From contig RFHZ01000431.1 of NCBI GenBank assembly GCA_003696125.1, positions 1 to 10,574 on the forward strand: 10,574 nt of DNA, written 5' to 3'. Positions 2,002 to 9,794 of the stretch are shown in pieces. The DNA comes from Nitrospinota bacterium (lineage in GTDB: Bacteria; Tectomicrobia; Entotheonellia; J063). The notes beneath the pieces were generated by a model, which was not told where the DNA came from, ran no database searches, and saw only the letters and a program-made list of their open reading frames with translations. Numbering within the stretch: the first letter of the stretch is position 1; each line of letters begins with the position of its first letter. The position numbers and the translations under genes are program-made.

Positions 2002-2018
2002 TTGGCATGCAGATTGCT
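2002..2018 (+). promoter_or_regulatory. Sigma-54 (-24/-12) promoter of the bc-type operon
   Basis: TTGGCATGCAGATTGCT matches the sigma-54 consensus YTGGCACGRNNNTTGCW at all but two specified positions. It keeps the essential GG (2004-2005) and GC (2016-2017) with exactly 10 bp between them. Transcription would begin near 2028, giving a leader of about 41 nt to the ATG at 2070. The site lies on the same strand as the operon, downstream of a gene for a sigma-54 activator and of three palindromic sites, and this context greatly raises its credibility. Confidence 0.85.
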
Positions 2019-2069: not shown

Positions 2070-3029
2070 ATGCAGCACTACGGGAGTAAGATGGGAAGAA
2101 TCCTGGGGATCGGTCTTCTCCTCATCCTGGTTTTCATGGGCACAAGTCGTGCCGATGGGCAGGAGGTCCGGGCGGTGAAGGTCCAGCAACCGCCGGCCAT
2201 CGATGGAGAGGTCGAGGCGGTCTGGGCACAGGCCCCCAGCCTCTCTATCCCGGTGGCAGGACCGAGTGGGAGCTTCACCGTGACCATGAAGGCCCTCTAC
2301 ACCGAGAGCGATCTCTACCTCCTCTTCCAATGGCCCGATGCTACCGAGAGCCTGAATCGACTTTATACGTACGACGGCAAGGCCTGGAAGAAGGTCAAGG
2401 GGAACGAGGATCGTTTTAATGTGATGTGGGGAAACAACATCGCAAACTTCAAGAAGATGGGCTGTTTTGCCCTGTGCCATGGGAATGCGATGCACACCAA
2501 TGCGCCAGAGGAACGGGGAGACCTCTGGCACTGGAAAGCCCAGCGGACCAATCCGGCCGGCTATGCCGATGACCAGTACATCGTGCATGAGCCAAAAGAA
2601 CACGAGCCGGGAGAGGTGACCGGCCGGCTGACCGATGCCAAGAGCGGGGGAGGATATCAGGGGAACTGGGATAAAGCGGGGAAGCATCCCCAATACACCT
2701 TTAAATCACCTCCCCCCGACCGCCGTGTCCTCCTGAAAGAGCAGGCCGTTCCCCTGACCGATCTCAGCACCGTTAAGGCGGGAGATATCCTCCCCCGTGA
2801 GGTGCTGGCCAGAGCAGAGGGGAGTCGGGGAGACATCACGGCCAAGGGACGCTGGGCCAACGGTACCTGGACATTGGAACTGCAGCGGGCTCTGGTCACC
2901 GGACACGAGGACGATATTCAATTTGCTGATCTCCACCGTGATTACTACTTCAGCATCTCGGTACACGACAACAGCGGGGAAGCGCATCACTCTTTCGCTA
3001 CCAGGGCTTATAAGCTTGAATTCGAATAG
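2070..3029 (+). CDS. Secreted ethylbenzene-dehydrogenase-type (EB_dh) heme protein with CX3CH motif
   Basis: The protein has 319 residues. The N-terminus is a signal peptide or membrane anchor (hydrophobic stretch about 11-24), so it acts in the periplasm. The body matches the EB_dh heme-binding fold, known from the gamma subunits of DMSO-reductase-family enzymes such as ethylbenzene dehydrogenase and from relatives of nitrite oxidoreductase NxrC. The opening AIDGEVEAVWAQAP strand and the signature DLWHWKAQRTNPAGYADDQ are visible. C132-FAL-C136-H137 is a CX3CH motif that may attach a c-type heme, one residue wider than the classical CXXCH. The start at 2070 has a strong AAAGGAGG (2056-2063) six bases upstream; the ATG at 2091 is an alternative. 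It is the first gene after the sigma-54 promoter. No molybdopterin catalytic subunit lies nearby, so it is probably an electron carrier or accessory subunit for the downstream complex. Confidence 0.8.
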   Translation: MQHYGSKMGRILGIGLLLILVFMGTSRADGQEVRAVKVQQPPAIDGEVEAVWAQAPSLSIPVAGPSGSFTVTMKALYTESDLYLLFQWPDATESLNRLYTYDGKAWKKVKGNEDRFNVMWGNNIANFKKMGCFALCHGNAMHTNAPEERGDLWHWKAQRTNPAGYADDQYIVHEPKEHEPGEVTGRLTDAKSGGGYQGNWDKAGKHPQYTFKSPPPDRRVLLKEQAVPLTDLSTVKAGDILPREVLARAEGSRGDITAKGRWANGTWTLELQRALVTGHEDDIQFADLHRDYYFSISVHDNSGEAHHSFATRAYKLEFE

Positions 3030-3070
3030 CCGGTGTCCGGGCAGGGGAGAATCAAAGAAGGGAGAAGGGG

Positions 3071-5032
3071 ATGAGGGAGCAGCGCTATCGAGTCCGCATA
3101 CCGGACCTGGACTACTACCGGGAGCTGATCAAGTGCCAGGCCGCCTGCCCTATCCACACCAGCGCCGGCTGTTATGTCACGGCCATTGCCAGGGAGGATT
3201 ACGAGGAAGCTTACGCCCTTGCCCGTAAACCCAACCCCTTTGTCTATACCTTAGGGCGGGTCTGTGGTCATCCCTGTGAGGATGCCTGCCGGCGGGGAGA
3301 GTTTGATGCACCGGTTGCCATCTGCGCACTCAAGCGGGTGGCCACCGAGCATCACAACCTGGGACTGGGACACAGTGTAGAGACGGCGGTGGTAAAGAAG
3401 AAAGCGCAGAAGGTGGCCATTGTGGGGGCCGGTCCGGCCGGCTTATCTGCTGCCCATGACCTGGCCCGCATGGGCTACCAGGTGACCGTCTTTGAAGCCT
3501 CGGGGGTGGCTGGAGGGATGTTGAACCTGGGGCTTCCGGTGTACCGGCTCCCTAAAGACATTGTCAAGCTGGAAGTCGATGCCATCTTGCATCTGGGAGT
3601 CGAATTACGACTCCATACTCCCCTGGGACCCCACTTCACCTTGCAGGACCTGCGGCGACAAGGGTACCATGCCATCTTTATCGCCGTGGGTGCCGGGAAG
3701 AGTCGCGATCTGAAGATTGAGGGAGTGGAGCTGGATGGGGTCTTGAAGGGGGTGGAATTCCTCCTCAACATCAACCTCGGCTATCGCGTGGAGCTGGGAG
3801 AGCGGGTGATTGTCATCGGTGGGGGCAACGTGGCCGTCGATGTGGCCCGGTCGGTGGTGCGGCGTATAGAGACGGTCGATATCGTCGATATCGATGAAAT
3901 CAAAGAGACACTGGATATCTATCGAGCCACCCTCCGCCGCCTGCTCGACCAGCATACTCCCAGTGAAGAAGGATTGACCGTGGCGATGGATGCGGCCCGA
4001 TCTGCCTTGCGTCTCGGAGCCAAGGAGGTCCGGATGGTCTGTCTGGAATCGCTAGAAGAGATGCCTGCCCATAAAAAGGAGATCGCGGAAGCACAAAAGG
4101 AAGGGATTCTCCTCTCCCCTTCGCGCGGACCCAAGCGGATCATCGGCCGGGATGGGAAGGTGGTGGGACTGGAAACCATTGCCTGCAGCGCCGTCTTCGA
4201 TCAGCAGGGGCGCTTTAATCCCACCTTTGTCGAGGGGACAGAAGAGGTCATCCCTGCAGATACGATCATCCTGGCGATCGGACAGACCTCAGACTTCAGC
4301 TTCATCCAGGAAGAGGATGGCATTCAGCTCTCCCCCCGTGGAACCATCGCCGTGGATCCGGATACGCTGGCCACCTCGGCTCCCGGGATCTTTGCCGGTG
4401 GAGACGCCGCCTTTGGTCCACGCCTCATCGTCCATGCCATCGCGGATGGGCAAAAAGCGGCGCGAGCGATTGATGCCTTCCTCAGTGGTGGGGAAAAGCG
4501 GTGGAAGACCGTTGCTCGCTTCCATCCCCTCCCACACCATCGGATGCCGGAACACTATCTGGAGATCGGTCGGCACGAGATGCCCACCCTCCCTTTGAAC
4601 CGGAGGGTGGGCATCGCCGAGGTGGAACTGGGGTTTGCTGACGCGGATGCGGTGGAAGAGGGGAAGCGCTGCTTACAATGCTTTATCAATCCGATCTTTG
4701 ATGGAGACAAATGCATCCTCTGTGGTGGCTGTGTCGATGTCTGCCCGGAGAACTGCCTCCGGTTGGTACGCATCCAGGATCTAGAAGGGGACGAGGACCT
4801 GGAGAGGCTCTTACAGATCCGATACGGGGGGGAGGAGATCTCCCTACAACCCGACTTAAGCTCATGGCCGGTAGAGGGAAGCGCCATGCTCAAAGAGGAG
4901 GATCGATGCATCCGGTGCGGTCTCTGTGCCTTACGTTGCCCTACCGGTGCGATCAGTATGGAGTTCTTTGAGTGGCAAGAGCGGGTGGAGCGCGCTCCCC
5001 ATCCGGGTGATAAGGGAGGGGAAGAGGGATGA
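3071..5032 (+). CDS. FAD/NAD(P)-dependent oxidoreductase with [4Fe-4S] domains (GltD/NfnB-like core)
   Basis: The protein has 653 residues, with no signal peptide or membrane span, so it is cytoplasmic. The N-terminal Fe-S domain has C22, C26, C34 and C65-x3-C69-x3-C73, as in the dihydropyrimidine dehydrogenase/GltD family. The FAD fold has G119-AG-PAG and a closing [12 protein letters not shown] segment. The NAD(P) fold has GGGN at 250-253. A C-terminal 2x[4Fe-4S] ferredoxin module has C548/551/554/558 and C613/616/619/623. Such proteins move electrons between NAD(P)H, flavin and Fe-S clusters. Placed directly before cytochrome b, with an ATGA stop-start overlap, it is probably a peripheral subunit linking the bc-type complex to the NAD(P)H or ferredoxin pool; the direction of electron flow cannot be told. 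Residues 266-303 carry an insertion not expected in GltD. The start has GAAGGGAG six bases upstream. Confidence 0.88.
3875..3892 (+). repeat. 9-bp perfect tandem duplication inside the oxidoreductase gene
   Basis: GTCGATATC occurs twice back to back and is followed by GATGA, encoding VDIVDID. It lies inside the insertion in the NAD(P)-binding fold and keeps the frame. It looks like a replication-slippage duplication. Confidence 0.85.
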
Positions 5033-6300
5033 GGTCGATGGAGGAAACAGGCCGTCTGGCCCGGATAACCCATTCTCCTGTCTGGAAGTCGATCTTCCGT
5101 CACGGCTATTCTGGAAGCGAGCTGGATAGAGCCCAGACCGTGTTTACCAATTTCTTCCTCCATATCCACCCAGTGAAAGTACGCAGAGAAACTCTAGAGT
5201 TTCGACACACCTTTTATCTGGGTGGTCTCGCCTTTCTTCTCTTCCTCCTCCTGCTGGTCACGGGAATCCTCCTCATGTTCTACTATGTCCCATCCGTGGA
5301 GCGGGCGTATCAGAGCATGCTGGGACTACAGACCGCCGTGGTCTTTGGTGTCTTTTTGCGCAACCTCCACCGCTGGTCGGCCCATGCCATGGTGGTGGTC
5401 GTGTTTCTGCACATGTGCCGGGTGTTTTATGGCGGAGCGTATAAGACCCCACGCGAATTCAACTGGGTGGTGGGGGTCATCCTCCTGGGACTCACCCTCT
5501 TCCTGAGCTTTACCGGATACCTGCTCCCCTGGGATCAACTGGCCTACTGGGCCATCACGGTCGGTACCAGCATCGCCGGCTATATCCCGGTGGTAGGGAA
5601 AAGCCTCCGACAGCTCCTCCTGGGGGGATTAGAGGTGGGACAGGAGACGCTCTTGCGTTTCTATGTGCTCCATGTGGCGGTGCTCCCTCTCCTGTCTGCC
5701 CTCTTCATTGCCATCCACTTCTGGCGCATCCGGAAGGATGGAGGCCTGGCCGAGCCGCTGTACGGCAGGAGAGAAAGGAAGGAAGAGAACAGGCCGTGGC
5801 AAGAGGTATTTCCAGAAAACCCGCAGAAGACCTATGGGCTGATGGCTCTGGTGAAAGGGGTATCCCCGGCCGTGGGAAAGGAGCCGGAGGAGACCGTTTT
5901 CACCGTCCCGTATCTGCTGGTGCTGGAGTTGGTGGGAACCCTGGTGGTCCTCTTTCTCCTGACCCTCGTCTCTATCTTCTTCTCTGCCCCTTTGGAGGAG
6001 TTGGCCAATCCGCTGCATACTCCCAATCCTGCCAAAGCCCCCTGGTACTTCCTGTGGCTGCAGGAACTGGTTTCCCACTCTGCCCTGTACGGGGGGGTGG
6101 TGCTTCCGAGCCTGATCTTCCTTGGCCTGCTCCTCCTCCCTTACCTGGATCGCAAGCCGGAGAGGGAGATGCGGGCACGCATGCTGTTCGTGTTCCCCTT
6201 TACCCTCATCATTATCGCCATAGTCGTGCTGACGATCATCGGTGCCTTTTTCCGCGGGCCGGAGTGGCGGTGGGTCTGGCCCTGGTCGGCAGGAGGATAA
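5029..6300 (+). CDS. Cytochrome b (fused b6/subunit IV type) of a bc-type complex
   Basis: This membrane protein of 423 residues resembles cytochrome b6 in its N-terminal half and subunit IV in its C-terminal half. The four b-heme histidines are present: H114 and H128 (HRWSA...FLH), and H215 and H230. The last pair has 14 residues between them, as in b6 rather than mitochondrial cytochrome b. Other b6 marks are [14 protein letters not shown] and the [15 protein letters not shown] loop. A charged loop of about 60 residues (about 237-300) joins the halves. It should oxidise quinol at the positive side and pass electrons to the Rieske protein. Two departures from b6f are notable. The quinol-site PEWY motif reads APWY (337-340). 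Tyr63 occupies the place of the cysteine that binds heme c-n. The start codon overlaps the upstream stop (ATGA), behind a GGGAGGGG ribosome site, which implies coupled translation. Confidence 0.94.
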
Positions 6301-6320
6301 CCGAAGGGAGGAGAGAAGCG

Positions 6321-6845
6321 GTGAAAAGGGAAGGAGAGGAGCGTTCTCTGCAACAAGGACTTACCCGTAGACGTATTCTCCTGGGGAGCTGGATCGTTGC
6401 CACTCTTGTCCTGCTGGGAGAGGGGATGGCCAGCCTGCTCCGCTACCTGAAACCGAGAACACGGGGGAAATTTGGGGGTGAGATCGTTGCCGGTGTGGTC
6501 ACCGAATTTCCTCCAGGTTCGATCACACACATTCAAAAGGGGAAGTTTTATCTCGTCCATCTGGATAGCGGGTTTCTGGCCATGTGGCACCGTTGTACCC
6601 ATCTGGGGTGTACCGTTCCCTGGAAGGAAGAGGATCAACGCTTTGAATGCCCCTGTCACGGCTCGATTTTTAACAAGAAGGGAGAGGTGCTGAGTGGCCC
6701 TGCGCCGCGTCCTCTCGATCTCTTTCCCCTGCGTATCATCCGGGGACAGATTGTGGTCGATACGGGTCAGGTCATCGAACGCACCCGCTTTGATCCTGCC
6801 CAGACGGTCTCTGCCCACCTGAGGCAAGAACAGGAGAAAGGATGA
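6321..6845 (+). CDS. Rieske [2Fe-2S] iron-sulfur protein
   Basis: The protein has 174 residues. The cluster-binding loops are C92-T-H94-L-G-C97 and C110-P-C112-H113-G. C92, H94, C110 and H113 bind the [2Fe-2S] cluster; C97 and C112 form the usual disulfide. The N-terminus has a twin-arginine stretch (LTRRRILLGSW) before a hydrophobic segment, so it is probably Tat-exported and stays anchored in the membrane with its head in the periplasm. It takes the first electron from quinol and hands it to cytochrome c. I chose the GTG at 6321 because AGGGAGGAG lies seven bases upstream and the gene follows cytochrome b by 20 bp. The same frame stays open back to 5796 inside cytochrome b, but that stretch has no domain and duplicates coding use. 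Confidence 0.95.
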   Translation: MKREGEERSLQQGLTRRRILLGSWIVATLVLLGEGMASLLRYLKPRTRGKFGGEIVAGVVTEFPPGSITHIQKGKFYLVHLDSGFLAMWHRCTHLGCTVPWKEEDQRFECPCHGSIFNKKGEVLSGPAPRPLDLFPLRIIRGQIVVDTGQVIERTRFDPAQTVSAHLRQEQEKG

Positions 6846-6849
6846 GACT

Positions 6850-7824
6850 ATGCCTCGCGATCTTCTGGATTGGGAGCTAGGCCTGGGAACCGTGCTCACT
6901 TTAGGACTGGCTGTACTGATCGGTGCCTACGGATTACGGGAACCGCAACGCCTGGATACAGCCACGGTTCAGCTGCACCGCTCTTCGATTGCCCGGGGGG
7001 CTACCCTCTATCAGCGCTACTGCGTCACCTGTCATGGGGCAAACGGCAAGGGGATTCCCCAGGTAGCTCCGGCATTGAACGATAAGAATTTCCTCGCTAC
7101 CGCCTCCGTAGAGGCCATTACCGATGCCATCACCGATGGACGACCCAATACGGCCATGCCGGCGTGGGGGCAACGGCACGGTGGTCCTCTCAATGCCCAG
7201 CATGTGCAAGATCTGGTGGCTTTTATCCAGAACTGGGAAAAGGCAGAAGTCCGTGTCCCCTCCTCTCCCCTCGTCCAGGGAGACCCGGTCGCCGGCAAGC
7301 GGATTTTTGATCAGGTCTGTTATCTCTGTCATGGAGAGAATGGGGAGGGGGGAGTGGCACCAGCCCTGAATAACCAGGAATTTCTCCGCCGCTATGATGA
7401 TGCCTTTATCCGGGAGACCGTGACCAAAGGACGACCGAGTAAGGGGATGCCCACCTGGGGAAAGGTCTTCTCCGCAGAACAGATCGCCGATGTTACCGCG
7501 TATATTCGAAGCTGGCAGCAGGGAGCAACTCTTCCTTCTCCTTCCCCGGCTTCTGCCCCCGCTGCGGAGTCCTCTTCTGCCGTCGAACGGGGCAAAGCGC
7601 TCTATCAGTCGCTGAACTGCGCTGCCTGTCATCGCATTCAAGGAGAGGGAGGCACCATCGGCCCTGATCTCTCCCATGAGGGGGAAAAGCGAGAAGCGGC
7701 CTGGCTACTCAAGCATTTCCAGGATCCACGCGCTCTCGTTCCCGATTCGGTGATGCCGGCCTTTGGGCATCTCTCTCCTGAAGATCTGGAGGGATTGGTG
7801 GCCTATATGCGCAGTCTGCGGTGA
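6850..7824 (+). CDS. Membrane-anchored triheme cytochrome c
   Basis: The protein has 324 residues. One N-terminal hydrophobic helix (about 9-29) lacks a clear cleavage site, so it probably anchors the protein with its domains in the periplasm. There are three c-heme motifs: CVTCH (58-62), CYLCH (157-161) and CAACH (257-261). Each is followed by a likely methionine ligand, in NTAMPAWG, SKGMPTWG and DSVMPAFG. Domains 1 and 2 are clearly related (VAPALN, GRP...MPxWG, then an aromatic helix), while domain 3 is of a different mono-heme type. A linker rich in Pro, Ser and Ala (about 222-240) separates domains 2 and 3. It begins 4 bp after the Rieske stop. It replaces cytochrome f or c1 as electron acceptor of the complex and may pass electrons directly to a terminal enzyme. 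Confidence 0.93.
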   Translation: MPRDLLDWELGLGTVLTLGLAVLIGAYGLREPQRLDTATVQLHRSSIARGATLYQRYCVTCHGANGKGIPQVAPALNDKNFLATASVEAITDAITDGRPNTAMPAWGQRHGGPLNAQHVQDLVAFIQNWEKAEVRVPSSPLVQGDPVAGKRIFDQVCYLCHGENGEGGVAPALNNQEFLRRYDDAFIRETVTKGRPSKGMPTWGKVFSAEQIADVTAYIRSWQQGATLPSPSPASAPAAESSSAVERGKALYQSLNCAACHRIQGEGGTIGPDLSHEGEKREAAWLLKHFQDPRALVPDSVMPAFGHLSPEDLEGLVAYMRSLR

Positions 7825-7844: not shown

Positions 7845-8837
7845 TCAGGGGCTAAAAAAGAGGAGGCCCCAGGCCAGGTTCACCAGCATGTGGGTCAGCG
7901 CCGAGACGGTCACTTTCCCTGTACGGCGCCAGACCCATCCATAAACCATGCCGGCCGGTGTGGCCATCAGCACATAAGCCCAGTTGGGCACGGCAAAGCC
8001 GGGAGTGGCATCGTTGAGATGGGCCAGGCCAAAGACCAGTGAGGCTATCAGCCATCCGGCTCGCTCCTTGCCAAGCCGTTGTGCCAGCAGGTTTTGGATA
8101 GCTCCCCGGAAAAGCATCTCTTCTACCAGGGCGACCAGGAAATAGCCCCCCAGGATGCCGGCAAGCAGATGGAGAGGGGAAGGGGCAAGCGGATGGAAGT
8201 GCAAAAACCCCACTCCCAACCCGAGTGGAAGCCCGATCACCGCATAGGCCAACAGGCCCTGCAAGGCATATTGCCAGTCCTTAAGACGGAGACGGAAGGT
8301 GAAACCCACACCCGGGAGGGGATGGTGCACCAGGAAGAGGAAGAGGGCCAGTGATATTGCTGTCAGCTTGGATACGGGGAGCTCCACACCGGGGAGCAGT
8401 GTTGTTCCCACTCCAGGTAACCCCAAGAAGCTCGCCAGTCGCGCACCCCACCCTCTCTCAGGCCAGAGGAGGTCCACCGGCAAGACGAACAGATCGGCCT
8501 CCACAGGTATCCAGAGGGCCAATATGGCGAGGAACTGGAGCAAGTCACCAGGCCTTGCCTGACAGGAACGCCAGCGCAGGCAGAGGGTAGGGAGGGTGAG
8601 AAAGAGGATAAGACGCAGGAGTTCACCCGGTGTCGGCTGCAGGTTGACGGCCAGCAGGTAAGGAGGCAAGAGAAGCAGGACGGTCCAGTCGCCTGAGCAC
8701 CTGCTGAGACGGGTCAGCAGGACCCGACCAGGATGAAACACCAGGGTCAGGTATATCCCCAACAGCAACCATGCGGCCAGCATGTTCATCTTGCTAACTC
8801 CATGCTCAGGGGTGGCGATGGAGCAACCCTTCCTCAT
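7845..8837 (-). CDS. CPBP-family intramembrane metalloprotease (CAAX protease-like)
   Basis: The protein has up to 330 residues with many hydrophobic helices, so it is an integral membrane protein. The C-terminal third carries the CPBP (Abi/Rce1-like) motifs: VEEMLFRG with the glutamate pair E239-E240 and the following arginine, VFGLAHL with a metal-binding histidine, and a final SALTHMLVNLAW with a second histidine. Family members cleave membrane or prenylated proteins or act in peptide modification; the substrate here cannot be told. The N-terminal half is a less conserved membrane region. The start at 8837 fits a predicted promoter that would leave a 24-nt leader. An in-frame ATG at 8789 has GGAG eight bases upstream and begins directly with hydrophobic sequence, so it is a real alternative. 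The gene converges on the cytochrome operon with a 20-bp gap and has no evident link to it. Confidence 0.87.
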   Translation of the reverse strand: MRKGCSIATPEHGVSKMNMLAAWLLLGIYLTLVFHPGRVLLTRLSRCSGDWTVLLLLPPYLLAVNLQPTPGELLRLILFLTLPTLCLRWRSCQARPGDLLQFLAILALWIPVEADLFVLPVDLLWPERGWGARLASFLGLPGVGTTLLPGVELPVSKLTAISLALFLFLVHHPLPGVGFTFRLRLKDWQYALQGLLAYAVIGLPLGLGVGFLHFHPLAPSPLHLLAGILGGYFLVALVEEMLFRGAIQNLLAQRLGKERAGWLIASLVFGLAHLNDATPGFAVPNWAYVLMATPAGMVYGWVWRRTGKVTVSALTHMLVNLAWGLLFFSP

Positions 8838-9125: not shown

Positions 9126-9794
9126 GTGTCATCGATTCGTGTGTTGCTTGTCGATGATCATACTTTATTCCGGAAAGGGCTTGCCTACCTGTTGTCTCTA
9201 TATCCTGATATCGAGGTGGTGGGCGAGGCAGAGAATGGAGAAGAGGCGATTGCCCGGGCGCAGGAGACGCAGCCTGATGTGATCCTTATGGACATCTATA
9301 TGCCGCGGATGGGCGGGTTAGAGGCTACCCAAAAGATTAAAGCGCTCATGCCCGCCCTGCCGATTGTTATCCTGACCGTATCCGATGATGAGCAGACCCT
9401 CCTGGCAGCGATTAAAAGTGGTGCACAGGGTTACCTGTTAAAGGATATTGCGCCAGAAGAACTGGTGGAGATGCTGCGCGGCATGGCACGAGGTGAAGCC
9501 CCTCTTTCCCGGGCAACTGCAGCAAAGATCCTGGCTGCTTTTTCTCGACAGATACACCAAGATCCTCCTCCCCCTACCCATCACCTGACCCAGCGAGAGC
9601 AGGAAGTATTGAGTTTAGTCGCTCAGGGAGCTACCAACAAAGAGATTGCGCTGGCTCTTCACATCAGTGAGAGCACGGTGAAGAATCACCTCCAGAGCAT
9701 CTTAGAGAAGCTCCACCTGGGGAACAGGGTCCAGGCCGCCACCTATGCCATTCAACACGGTCTACTCGATCCTTTCCCCTCTGAAGAATCCTGA
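9126..9794 (+). CDS. NarL/LuxR-family response regulator
   Basis: The protein has 222 residues in two domains. The receiver has the acidic pair D10/D11, phospho-acceptor D56 in DVILMDIYMP, and the lysine of GYLLKDI. The C-terminal LuxR-type helix-turn-helix has LTQREQEVLSLVAQG and NKEIALALHISESTVKNHL. It should bind DNA when phosphorylated by an unseen sensor kinase; no kinase gene is next to it in the window. I prefer the GTG at 9126 because the receiver begins within four residues and an AGGAG lies ten bases upstream. The same frame is open from an ATG at 9012, which would add 38 basic residues that match no receiver; its ribosome site is poor. The Tat-protein gene 289 bp downstream on the same strand is a possible target, but no binding site could be named. 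Confidence 0.93.
   Translation: MSSIRVLLVDDHTLFRKGLAYLLSLYPDIEVVGEAENGEEAIARAQETQPDVILMDIYMPRMGGLEATQKIKALMPALPIVILTVSDDEQTLLAAIKSGAQGYLLKDIAPEELVEMLRGMARGEAPLSRATAAKILAAFSRQIHQDPPPPTHHLTQREQEVLSLVAQGATNKEIALALHISESTVKNHLQSILEKLHLGNRVQAATYAIQHGLLDPFPSEES

Follow-up and report, generated by a model that had tools for sequence, protein, structure and literature searches.

A flavoprotein-linked Rieske/cytochrome b operon in a Nitrospinota bacterium and its relatives across bacterial phyla

Two gene clusters of the anaerobic ammonium-oxidizing (anammox) bacterium Kuenenia stuttgartiensis, Kustd1480-1485 and Kuste4569-4574, encode Rieske/cytochrome b complexes with a putative nicotinamide adenine dinucleotide (phosphate), NAD(P), oxidoreductase (Hauser et al. 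2025, PMC12954380). The potentials of the Kuenenia Rieske proteins were measured as +335 and +303 mV, and quinol bifurcation to NAD(P)+ was proposed (PMC12954380). In the same work a heme was predicted by AlphaFold between His43/His62 of two cytochrome b monomers, comigration of all Kuste4569-4574 subunits is stated to have been seen experimentally, and the NfnABC entry 9bp5 served to place the iron-sulfur (Fe-S) clusters (PMC12954380). Here we describe a related five-gene operon at positions 2070-7824 of a 10,574-nucleotide stretch of DNA from a Nitrospinota bacterium; this whole stretch, hereafter the window, is bases 1-10574 of contig C762 in a genome of 4.18 Mb in 990 contigs. An initial annotation, made from the sequence alone, pointed to similar flavoprotein-bc gene neighbors in anammox bacteria and supposed that the core might not be wholly new. 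Both points were well taken, as such neighbors are found in the Kuenenia clusters and in the Scalindua loci L058 and L213, and both the core and the mechanism proposed for it have already been published for Kuenenia (PMC12954380).

The operon and the spread of its flavoprotein-bc core

The five genes of the operon lie on the + strand at 2070-3029, 3071-5032, 5029-6300, 6321-6845, and 6850-7824 in the list of open reading frames (ORFs) of the window, with gaps of 41, -4, 20, and 4 bp, and this layout agrees exactly with the initial annotation. Its gene identities were likewise supported by Pfam domains and sequence motifs. The first gene (2070-3029) encodes an EB_dh (PF09459) protein with a hydrophobic N-terminus (Pfam, E 2.6e-35), and the second (3071-5032) a 653 aa flavoprotein for flavin adenine dinucleotide (FAD) and NAD(P) with Fer4_20, Pyr_redox_2, and two Fer4 domains. 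These are followed by a fused cytochrome b (5029-6300), in which Cytochrome_B and Cytochrom_B_C, corresponding to b6 and subunit IV, occur in a single chain; by a Rieske [2Fe-2S] protein (6321-6845) with a GTG start, the motif CTHLGC...CPCHGSIF, and one N-terminal hydrophobic segment; and by a triheme cytochrome c (6850-7824) with three cytochrome c domains, three CXXCH motifs, and an N-terminal hydrophobic segment. The operon thus joins a Rieske protein, an ExtP-type cytochrome b, a multiheme cytochrome c, and an NfnABC/GltD-like flavoprotein; the flavoprotein is related to that of anammox bacteria and has the cysteines for about four clusters, and the cytochrome b has a histidine at the proposed inter-monomer heme site. 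We consider it very probable that the window belongs to the flavoprotein-Rieske/cytochrome b kind described from Kuenenia. It falls outside the narrower Kuenenia subtype, having three CXXCH motifs and a tyrosine, Tyr63, at the heme-cN position.

A scan of genome contigs with the flavoprotein as a single sequence gave no matches, and an alignment scan of named genomes succeeded, listing 80 loci of 519 relatives; together with the window, 81 loci were scored. Within 3 kb of the flavoprotein gene and on its strand, a cytochrome b is encoded in 76 of the 81 loci and a Rieske protein in 79, and the five loci without a cytochrome b partner are all cut by contig ends. The listed loci come from Acidobacteriota, Chloroflexota, Zixibacteria, Verrucomicrobiota, Armatimonadota, Binatota, Desulfobacterales, Neomarinimicrobiota, Bacteroidota/Ignavibacteria, Nitrospinota, and the anammox genus Scalindua; the comparison genomes from the source phylum are four others, all of one class. 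In a separate sample of 386 genomes, compared by hand and including a few genomes that also fed the profile, 27 high-scoring flavoprotein places were found in 25 genomes, and 26 of these places have a cytochrome b nearby on the same contig. Because the gene set recurs in dozens of genomes, it is far beyond chance, and the core is spread over about a dozen bacterial phyla. The initial annotation had expected the flavoprotein and cytochrome b genes to co-occur and named their separation in relatives as the outcome that would speak against it, and the two surveys exclude that outcome. The gene order flavoprotein-b-Rieske-c is found in the window and in Chloroflexota loci, and most other loci have flavoprotein-Rieske-b-c.

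The closest NCBIfam models to the flavoprotein are PRK12771 and PRK12814, with scores below every NCBIfam cut-off shown, and its best solved relatives are 9bov/9bp5. It groups with the Zixibacteria proteins of loci L032 and L033. Across 87 flavoproteins, 16 cysteines are present family-wide, five in the N-terminal Fer4_20 region and 11 in the C-terminal ferredoxin domain, and these would serve about four clusters, as the initial annotation had estimated. The window protein also carries Cys85 in its N-terminal region. Among the same 87 proteins, Cys61/Arg85 alternates with Leu61/Cys85: Cys61 is present in 77, and the combination of Leu61 with Cys85 occurs in seven, including those of the window and of anammox L213. 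This swap is probably an exchange of an N-terminal Fe-S cluster ligand. The L213 flavoprotein, which scores 576 bits to the family profile, shares the 16 family-wide cysteines with that of the window.

The cytochrome b scores 292.3 bits against the ExtP equivalog of NCBIfam, for which the cut-off is 290. Its predicted structure (pLDDT, a per-residue confidence score, of 71) matches bc1 cytochromes b with Z 23-27. The four b-heme histidines of helices B and D are present as H114, H128, H215, and H230; H114 and H128 are invariant in 81 sequences, and H215 and H230 are invariant wherever they are covered. The helix D ligand spacing is 15, which is b6f-like. The PEWY motif of canonical bc1/b6f cytochromes b is absent: the window has AKAPWYF (residues 335-341) where PEWY is expected, and AKA[PA]WY[FL] replaces it in 76 of 76 covering sequences, including one in which a base of the motif is unread. 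A further histidine, His45, ahead of the first membrane helix, is invariant in all 81 flavoprotein-linked cytochromes b. The Kuenenia proteins and L213 all show a distance of 204 residues from this histidine to an arginine near the heme propionates; in the window type, which has the same RK pair, the distance is 190. Judging from this spacing and from the Scalindua homologue, rather than from a direct alignment with Kuenenia, His45 is the equivalent of the proposed interface-heme ligand of Kuenenia. Both types occur together in one Scalindua genome (G386): the operon at L058 is of the window type, and that at L213 has the composition Rieske-b6-flavoprotein-subunit IV. The same genome encodes a third ExtP-clade complex (L214), Rieske-b6-subunit IV-hexaheme, with no flavoprotein gene beside it.

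We also read 18 sister ExtP-type loci, which encode a Rieske protein, b6, subunit IV, and mostly a multiheme cytochrome c, and which have no flavoprotein gene in the fetched flanks. Their cytochromes b carry the His45 equivalent and KAPWYF, whereas the canonical b6f/bc1 members read have neither. His45 was therefore rejected as a marker of the flavoprotein; it is a feature of the ExtP clade as a whole. In a tree built from N-terminal halves, the sisters nest among the flavoprotein-linked cytochromes b, and L213 falls among the sisters. The heme-cN cysteine is present in 11 of the 18 sisters, compared with three of the 81 flavoprotein-linked cytochromes b. Its rarity in the latter would be in keeping with quinone no longer being reduced on the N-side once electrons are drawn off by the flavoprotein; we would like to note that this pattern is a tendency and not a test, because the sequences share descent and L213 combines the cysteine with a flavoprotein. 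The source genome encodes two further ExtP-type cytochromes b with no flavoprotein gene nearby, on contigs C810 (L176), where a Rieske gene and genes for multiheme cytochromes surround it, and C983 (L187).

The EB_dh protein and probable sigma-54 control

The EB_dh protein is likely exported. It contains a CX3CH motif (CFALCH, residues 132-137) that is kept in 10 of 10 close relatives, which suggests that it could bind heme covalently with an unusual spacing. Its structure predicted from two sequences had a pLDDT of 39 and was not used. The family is known from EbdC and NXR-C, which carry a b-type heme (PMC8387239). No type II DMSO (dimethyl sulfoxide)-reductase-family A/B pair is encoded in the window. 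Elsewhere in the genome there are ten PF00384 places, and the seven tested match formate dehydrogenase, NuoG, QrcB, DmsA/PhsA, and arsenic-enzyme models, with no NarG/NXR-like match among the seven.

The initial annotation had counted the EB_dh protein as a member of the complex. For the complex in general this was not supported, since among the surveyed flavoprotein loci it is present only in the window and in L040 (Desulfobacterales), where it is fused to a kinase. At 10486-12873 of L040, directly downstream of a flavoprotein-Rieske-b-octaheme operon, an EB_dh domain (CAVLCH) and a HisKA_3 kinase domain are encoded in one chain, a possible heme-based sensor for that complex. Other CX3CH EB_dh genes lie beside ordinary Rieske/cytochrome b genes in L133 and L138, and the EB_dh gene of L030 in the source genome lies near a chemoreceptor gene. 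In L135 and L137 (7550-14240), a CX3CH EB_dh gene precedes genes for a 598-aa protein resembling cytochrome bd subunit I and for three cytochromes c, an arrangement conserved in two genomes that looks like an unusual oxidase cluster. On this pattern of gene neighbors, the window's EB_dh protein is best read as a lineage-specific periplasmic electron-transfer heme protein and not as part of the conserved complex.

Upstream of the operon, a perfect match to a sigma-54 -24/-12 promoter, TGGCATGCAGATTGCT, lies at 2003-2018 (+ strand, 0 mismatches), about 50 bp ahead of the EB_dh start, compared with 0.14 such sites expected when one mismatch is allowed. Farther upstream are three exact copies of the palindrome GGTCA-N3-TGACC on the + strand, GGTCAATTTGACC at 1794-1806, GGTCAAAATGACC at 1835-1847, and GGTCAATCTGACC at 1878-1890, with starts spaced 41 and 43 bp, where 0.02 copies were expected. 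Genome-wide this palindrome has 30 sites, and they cluster only at the operon; six other palindrome contexts examined have no matching sigma-54 site, and no sigma-70-like site was found on the + strand between 1780 and 8000. Directly before these sites, an NtrC-family response regulator (427-1794, +) is encoded, with a receiver domain, a sigma-54 AAA domain with GAFTGA, and a Fis helix-turn-helix domain (ORF list, Pfam, and NCBIfam). The promoter, the upstream activator sites, and the activator gene are thus all present, and because the -24/-12 site is perfect, the palindromes are clustered, and the neighboring regulator has GAFTGA, sigma-54 control of the operon by that regulator is likely. 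Sigma-54 control as such, which the initial annotation had named, is strongly supported by these sequences.

The regulator gene is preceded by one for the C-terminal part of a sensor histidine kinase (1-390, +; HATPase_c, PF02518, E 1.7e-27), which is AtoS/ZraS-like with scores below the cut-offs and whose sensor half falls before the contig start, as the window begins at contig base 1. Convergent with the operon, 7845-8837 (- strand) encodes a CPBP-family membrane protease (Rce1-like, myxosortase-like). Downstream are a NarL-type response regulator (9138-9794), similar to regulators that flank the related operons L024 and L025, and a protein with a Tat signal, of unknown family, that is truncated by the contig end (10081-10572).

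Proposed electron flow and alternative readings

We propose that the four genes at 3071-7824 encode a quinol-oxidizing complex that couples NAD(P)+ reduction to cytochrome c reduction, and we give the full mechanism even chances. Quinol would be oxidized on the periplasmic side. The first electron would pass to the Rieske cluster and on to the triheme cytochrome c, from which it would reach acceptors in the periplasm; the EB_dh heme protein, a lineage-specific addition on that side of the membrane, may act as an intermediary. The second would travel by way of both b hemes, and perhaps of a heme that His45 holds between the monomers, until it reaches the flavoprotein in the cytoplasm, whose Fe-S clusters would relay it to FAD and finally to NAD(P)+. 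The favorable branch would pay for NAD(P)H formation, which would amount to quinol bifurcation, and the adjoining NtrC-type two-component system would switch the operon on through sigma-54.

This proposal is supported by the linkage of the core in 76 of 81 loci and 26 of 27 places, as well as by the closest solved relatives of the window Rieske protein, 9rk4 and 9rk3, whose entry names fit the two Kuenenia Rieske proteins of PMC12954380, a study that determined their potentials and lent support to this mechanism. Further support comes from the flavoprotein's relationship to 9bov/9bp5 and the presence of both L058 and L213 in Scalindua, from the His45 equivalence and the conservation of all four b-heme ligands, and from the rarity of the heme-cN cysteine, which fits electrons leaving to the flavoprotein and not to an N-side quinone. 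Several points weigh on the other side. His45 is equally conserved in the sisters that have no flavoprotein gene in their fetched flanks and so is not specific evidence for NAD(P) wiring, and AKAPWYF in place of PEWY is likewise common to those sisters. The tie of the EB_dh protein to the complex comes from one operon and scattered neighborhoods. The physical assembly of the complex, its cofactor content, and the direction of electron flow are points that we infer, and the direction is the weakest step. In a check for menaquinone, the MenD and MqnC models scored below their cut-offs in the source genome (for MenD, sub-cut-off matches only). The MqnC match in that genome (C777, L231) was rejected, being CofH (F420-type).

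The same cofactor chain is reversible in principle, and the flavoprotein could instead oxidize NAD(P)H or take ferredoxin electrons, with the b hemes conveying these electrons to quinone or cytochrome c; the complex would then be a cytochrome b-based NAD(P)H dehydrogenase. The genome encodes heme-copper oxidase fragments, alternative-complex-III-like (QrcB/QrcC) proteins, and NuoG-like proteins, so oxidants exist for such an NAD(P)H-driven chain. We nevertheless hold this reverse run to be unlikely, as it has been argued to waste energy where proton-pumping NADH dehydrogenases are present (PMC12954380), and the high potentials of the Kuenenia Rieske proteins fit bifurcation; the window Rieske protein keeps the serine and has a phenylalanine like Kustd1480. 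It is also possible to see an ordinary proton-translocating Q-cycle complex here, with the flavoprotein as a separate co-transcribed cytoplasmic enzyme or an accessory entry point. Sisters that have His45 and AKAPWYF with no flavoprotein gene nearby, including those on C810 and C983 of the source genome, would fit this, as would the described ExtO-ExtP-ExtQ cluster of Geobacter, which lists no flavoprotein (PMC5877670). We regard such a Q-cycle complex as quite improbable, given that the flavoprotein gene almost always adjoins the complex across dozens of distantly related genomes, that the heme-cN cysteine of the N-side is mostly missing when a flavoprotein is linked, and that the Kuste4569-4574 subunits are stated to comigrate (PMC12954380).

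For the EB_dh protein, the arrangement in L040, where the closest EB_dh domain sits in a HisKA_3 chain just downstream of the same kind of operon, and the position of the L030 gene near a chemoreceptor gene raise the question of whether it acts in the periplasm as a heme sensor for the histidine kinase encoded upstream and not as an electron carrier. This seems rather doubtful to us, because CX3CH EB_dh genes elsewhere adjoin Rieske/cytochrome b genes (L133, L138) or bd-like oxidase and cytochrome c genes (L135, L137), and the window gene is placed behind the sigma-54 promoter and not with the kinase.

Significance and comparison with known systems

What is added here to the published Kuenenia work is the wide distribution of the operon, a cytochrome b signature that unites its members (an invariant His45 and AKAPWYF) together with the correction of what His45 marks, and the heme-cN tendency. 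Also new are an EB_dh subfamily with an invariant CX3CH and a variant of the operon with a fused cytochrome b, a triheme cytochrome c, no heme-cN cysteine, and sigma-54 control with three operator palindromes. We found no paper that deals with CX3CH EB_dh proteins and none that describes the flavoprotein-bc operon from bacteria other than anammox bacteria, which is weak evidence as most subscription journals lay outside the search. If the anammox proposal is true, a bc complex can make NAD(P)H straight from quinol with no reverse flow through complex I. Work on this question need not depend on slow-growing anammox cultures, as carriers of the gene set are found in Acidobacteriota, Chloroflexota, Verrucomicrobiota, Zixibacteria, Armatimonadota, Bacteroidota, and other groups. 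The sisters, which keep the proposed interface-heme ligand with no flavoprotein gene nearby, put the published electron path to a stringent test, since the interface heme, if real, must serve another role there. More tentatively, and with less than even confidence, we suggest that quinol-bifurcating NAD(P)+-reducing bc complexes may form a widespread class in about a dozen phyla and not something particular to anammox bacteria, with the CX3CH EB_dh protein as a new periplasmic electron outlet of this lineage.

Similar to the Kuenenia complexes, the window combines a Rieske protein (serine kept, phenylalanine as in Kustd1480), a b6f-like cytochrome b with a subunit IV part and the equivalent of the proposed interface-heme histidine, a multiheme cytochrome c, and an NAD(P) oxidoreductase that resembles NfnABC and would hold about four Fe-S clusters. 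In contrast to them, its b and subunit IV are fused, its cytochrome c is triheme and not hexa- or octaheme, the heme-cN cysteine is absent, the gene order is flavoprotein-b-Rieske-c, and an EB_dh gene in front and a sigma-54 promoter are added. With Geobacter ExtO-ExtP-ExtQ and related complexes it shares a cytochrome b just above the ExtP cut-off and, through the sisters, the His45 equivalent and KAPWYF; these complexes differ in having no flavoprotein gene nearby, often a heme-cN cysteine, and separate b6 and subunit IV. The flavoprotein has the Fer4_20, Pyr_redox_2, and ferredoxin domains of NfnABC and GltD/PRK12771-type flavoproteins, yet its gene is tied to cytochrome b and not to other Nfn subunits. 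The EB_dh protein shares the PF09459 family with the EbdC/NXR-C gamma subunits, with a weak sequence match to NXR-C (E 0.21), but those belong to molybdoenzymes, whereas in the window subfamily CX3CH is invariant and no gene for a molybdoenzyme lies alongside. Finally, the cytochrome b fold, the four heme ligands, the Rieske motif, and the b6f-like helix D spacing are those of canonical bc1/b6f complexes, from which the window is set apart by its NAD(P) flavoprotein gene, AKAPWYF in place of PEWY, and the extra N-terminal His45.

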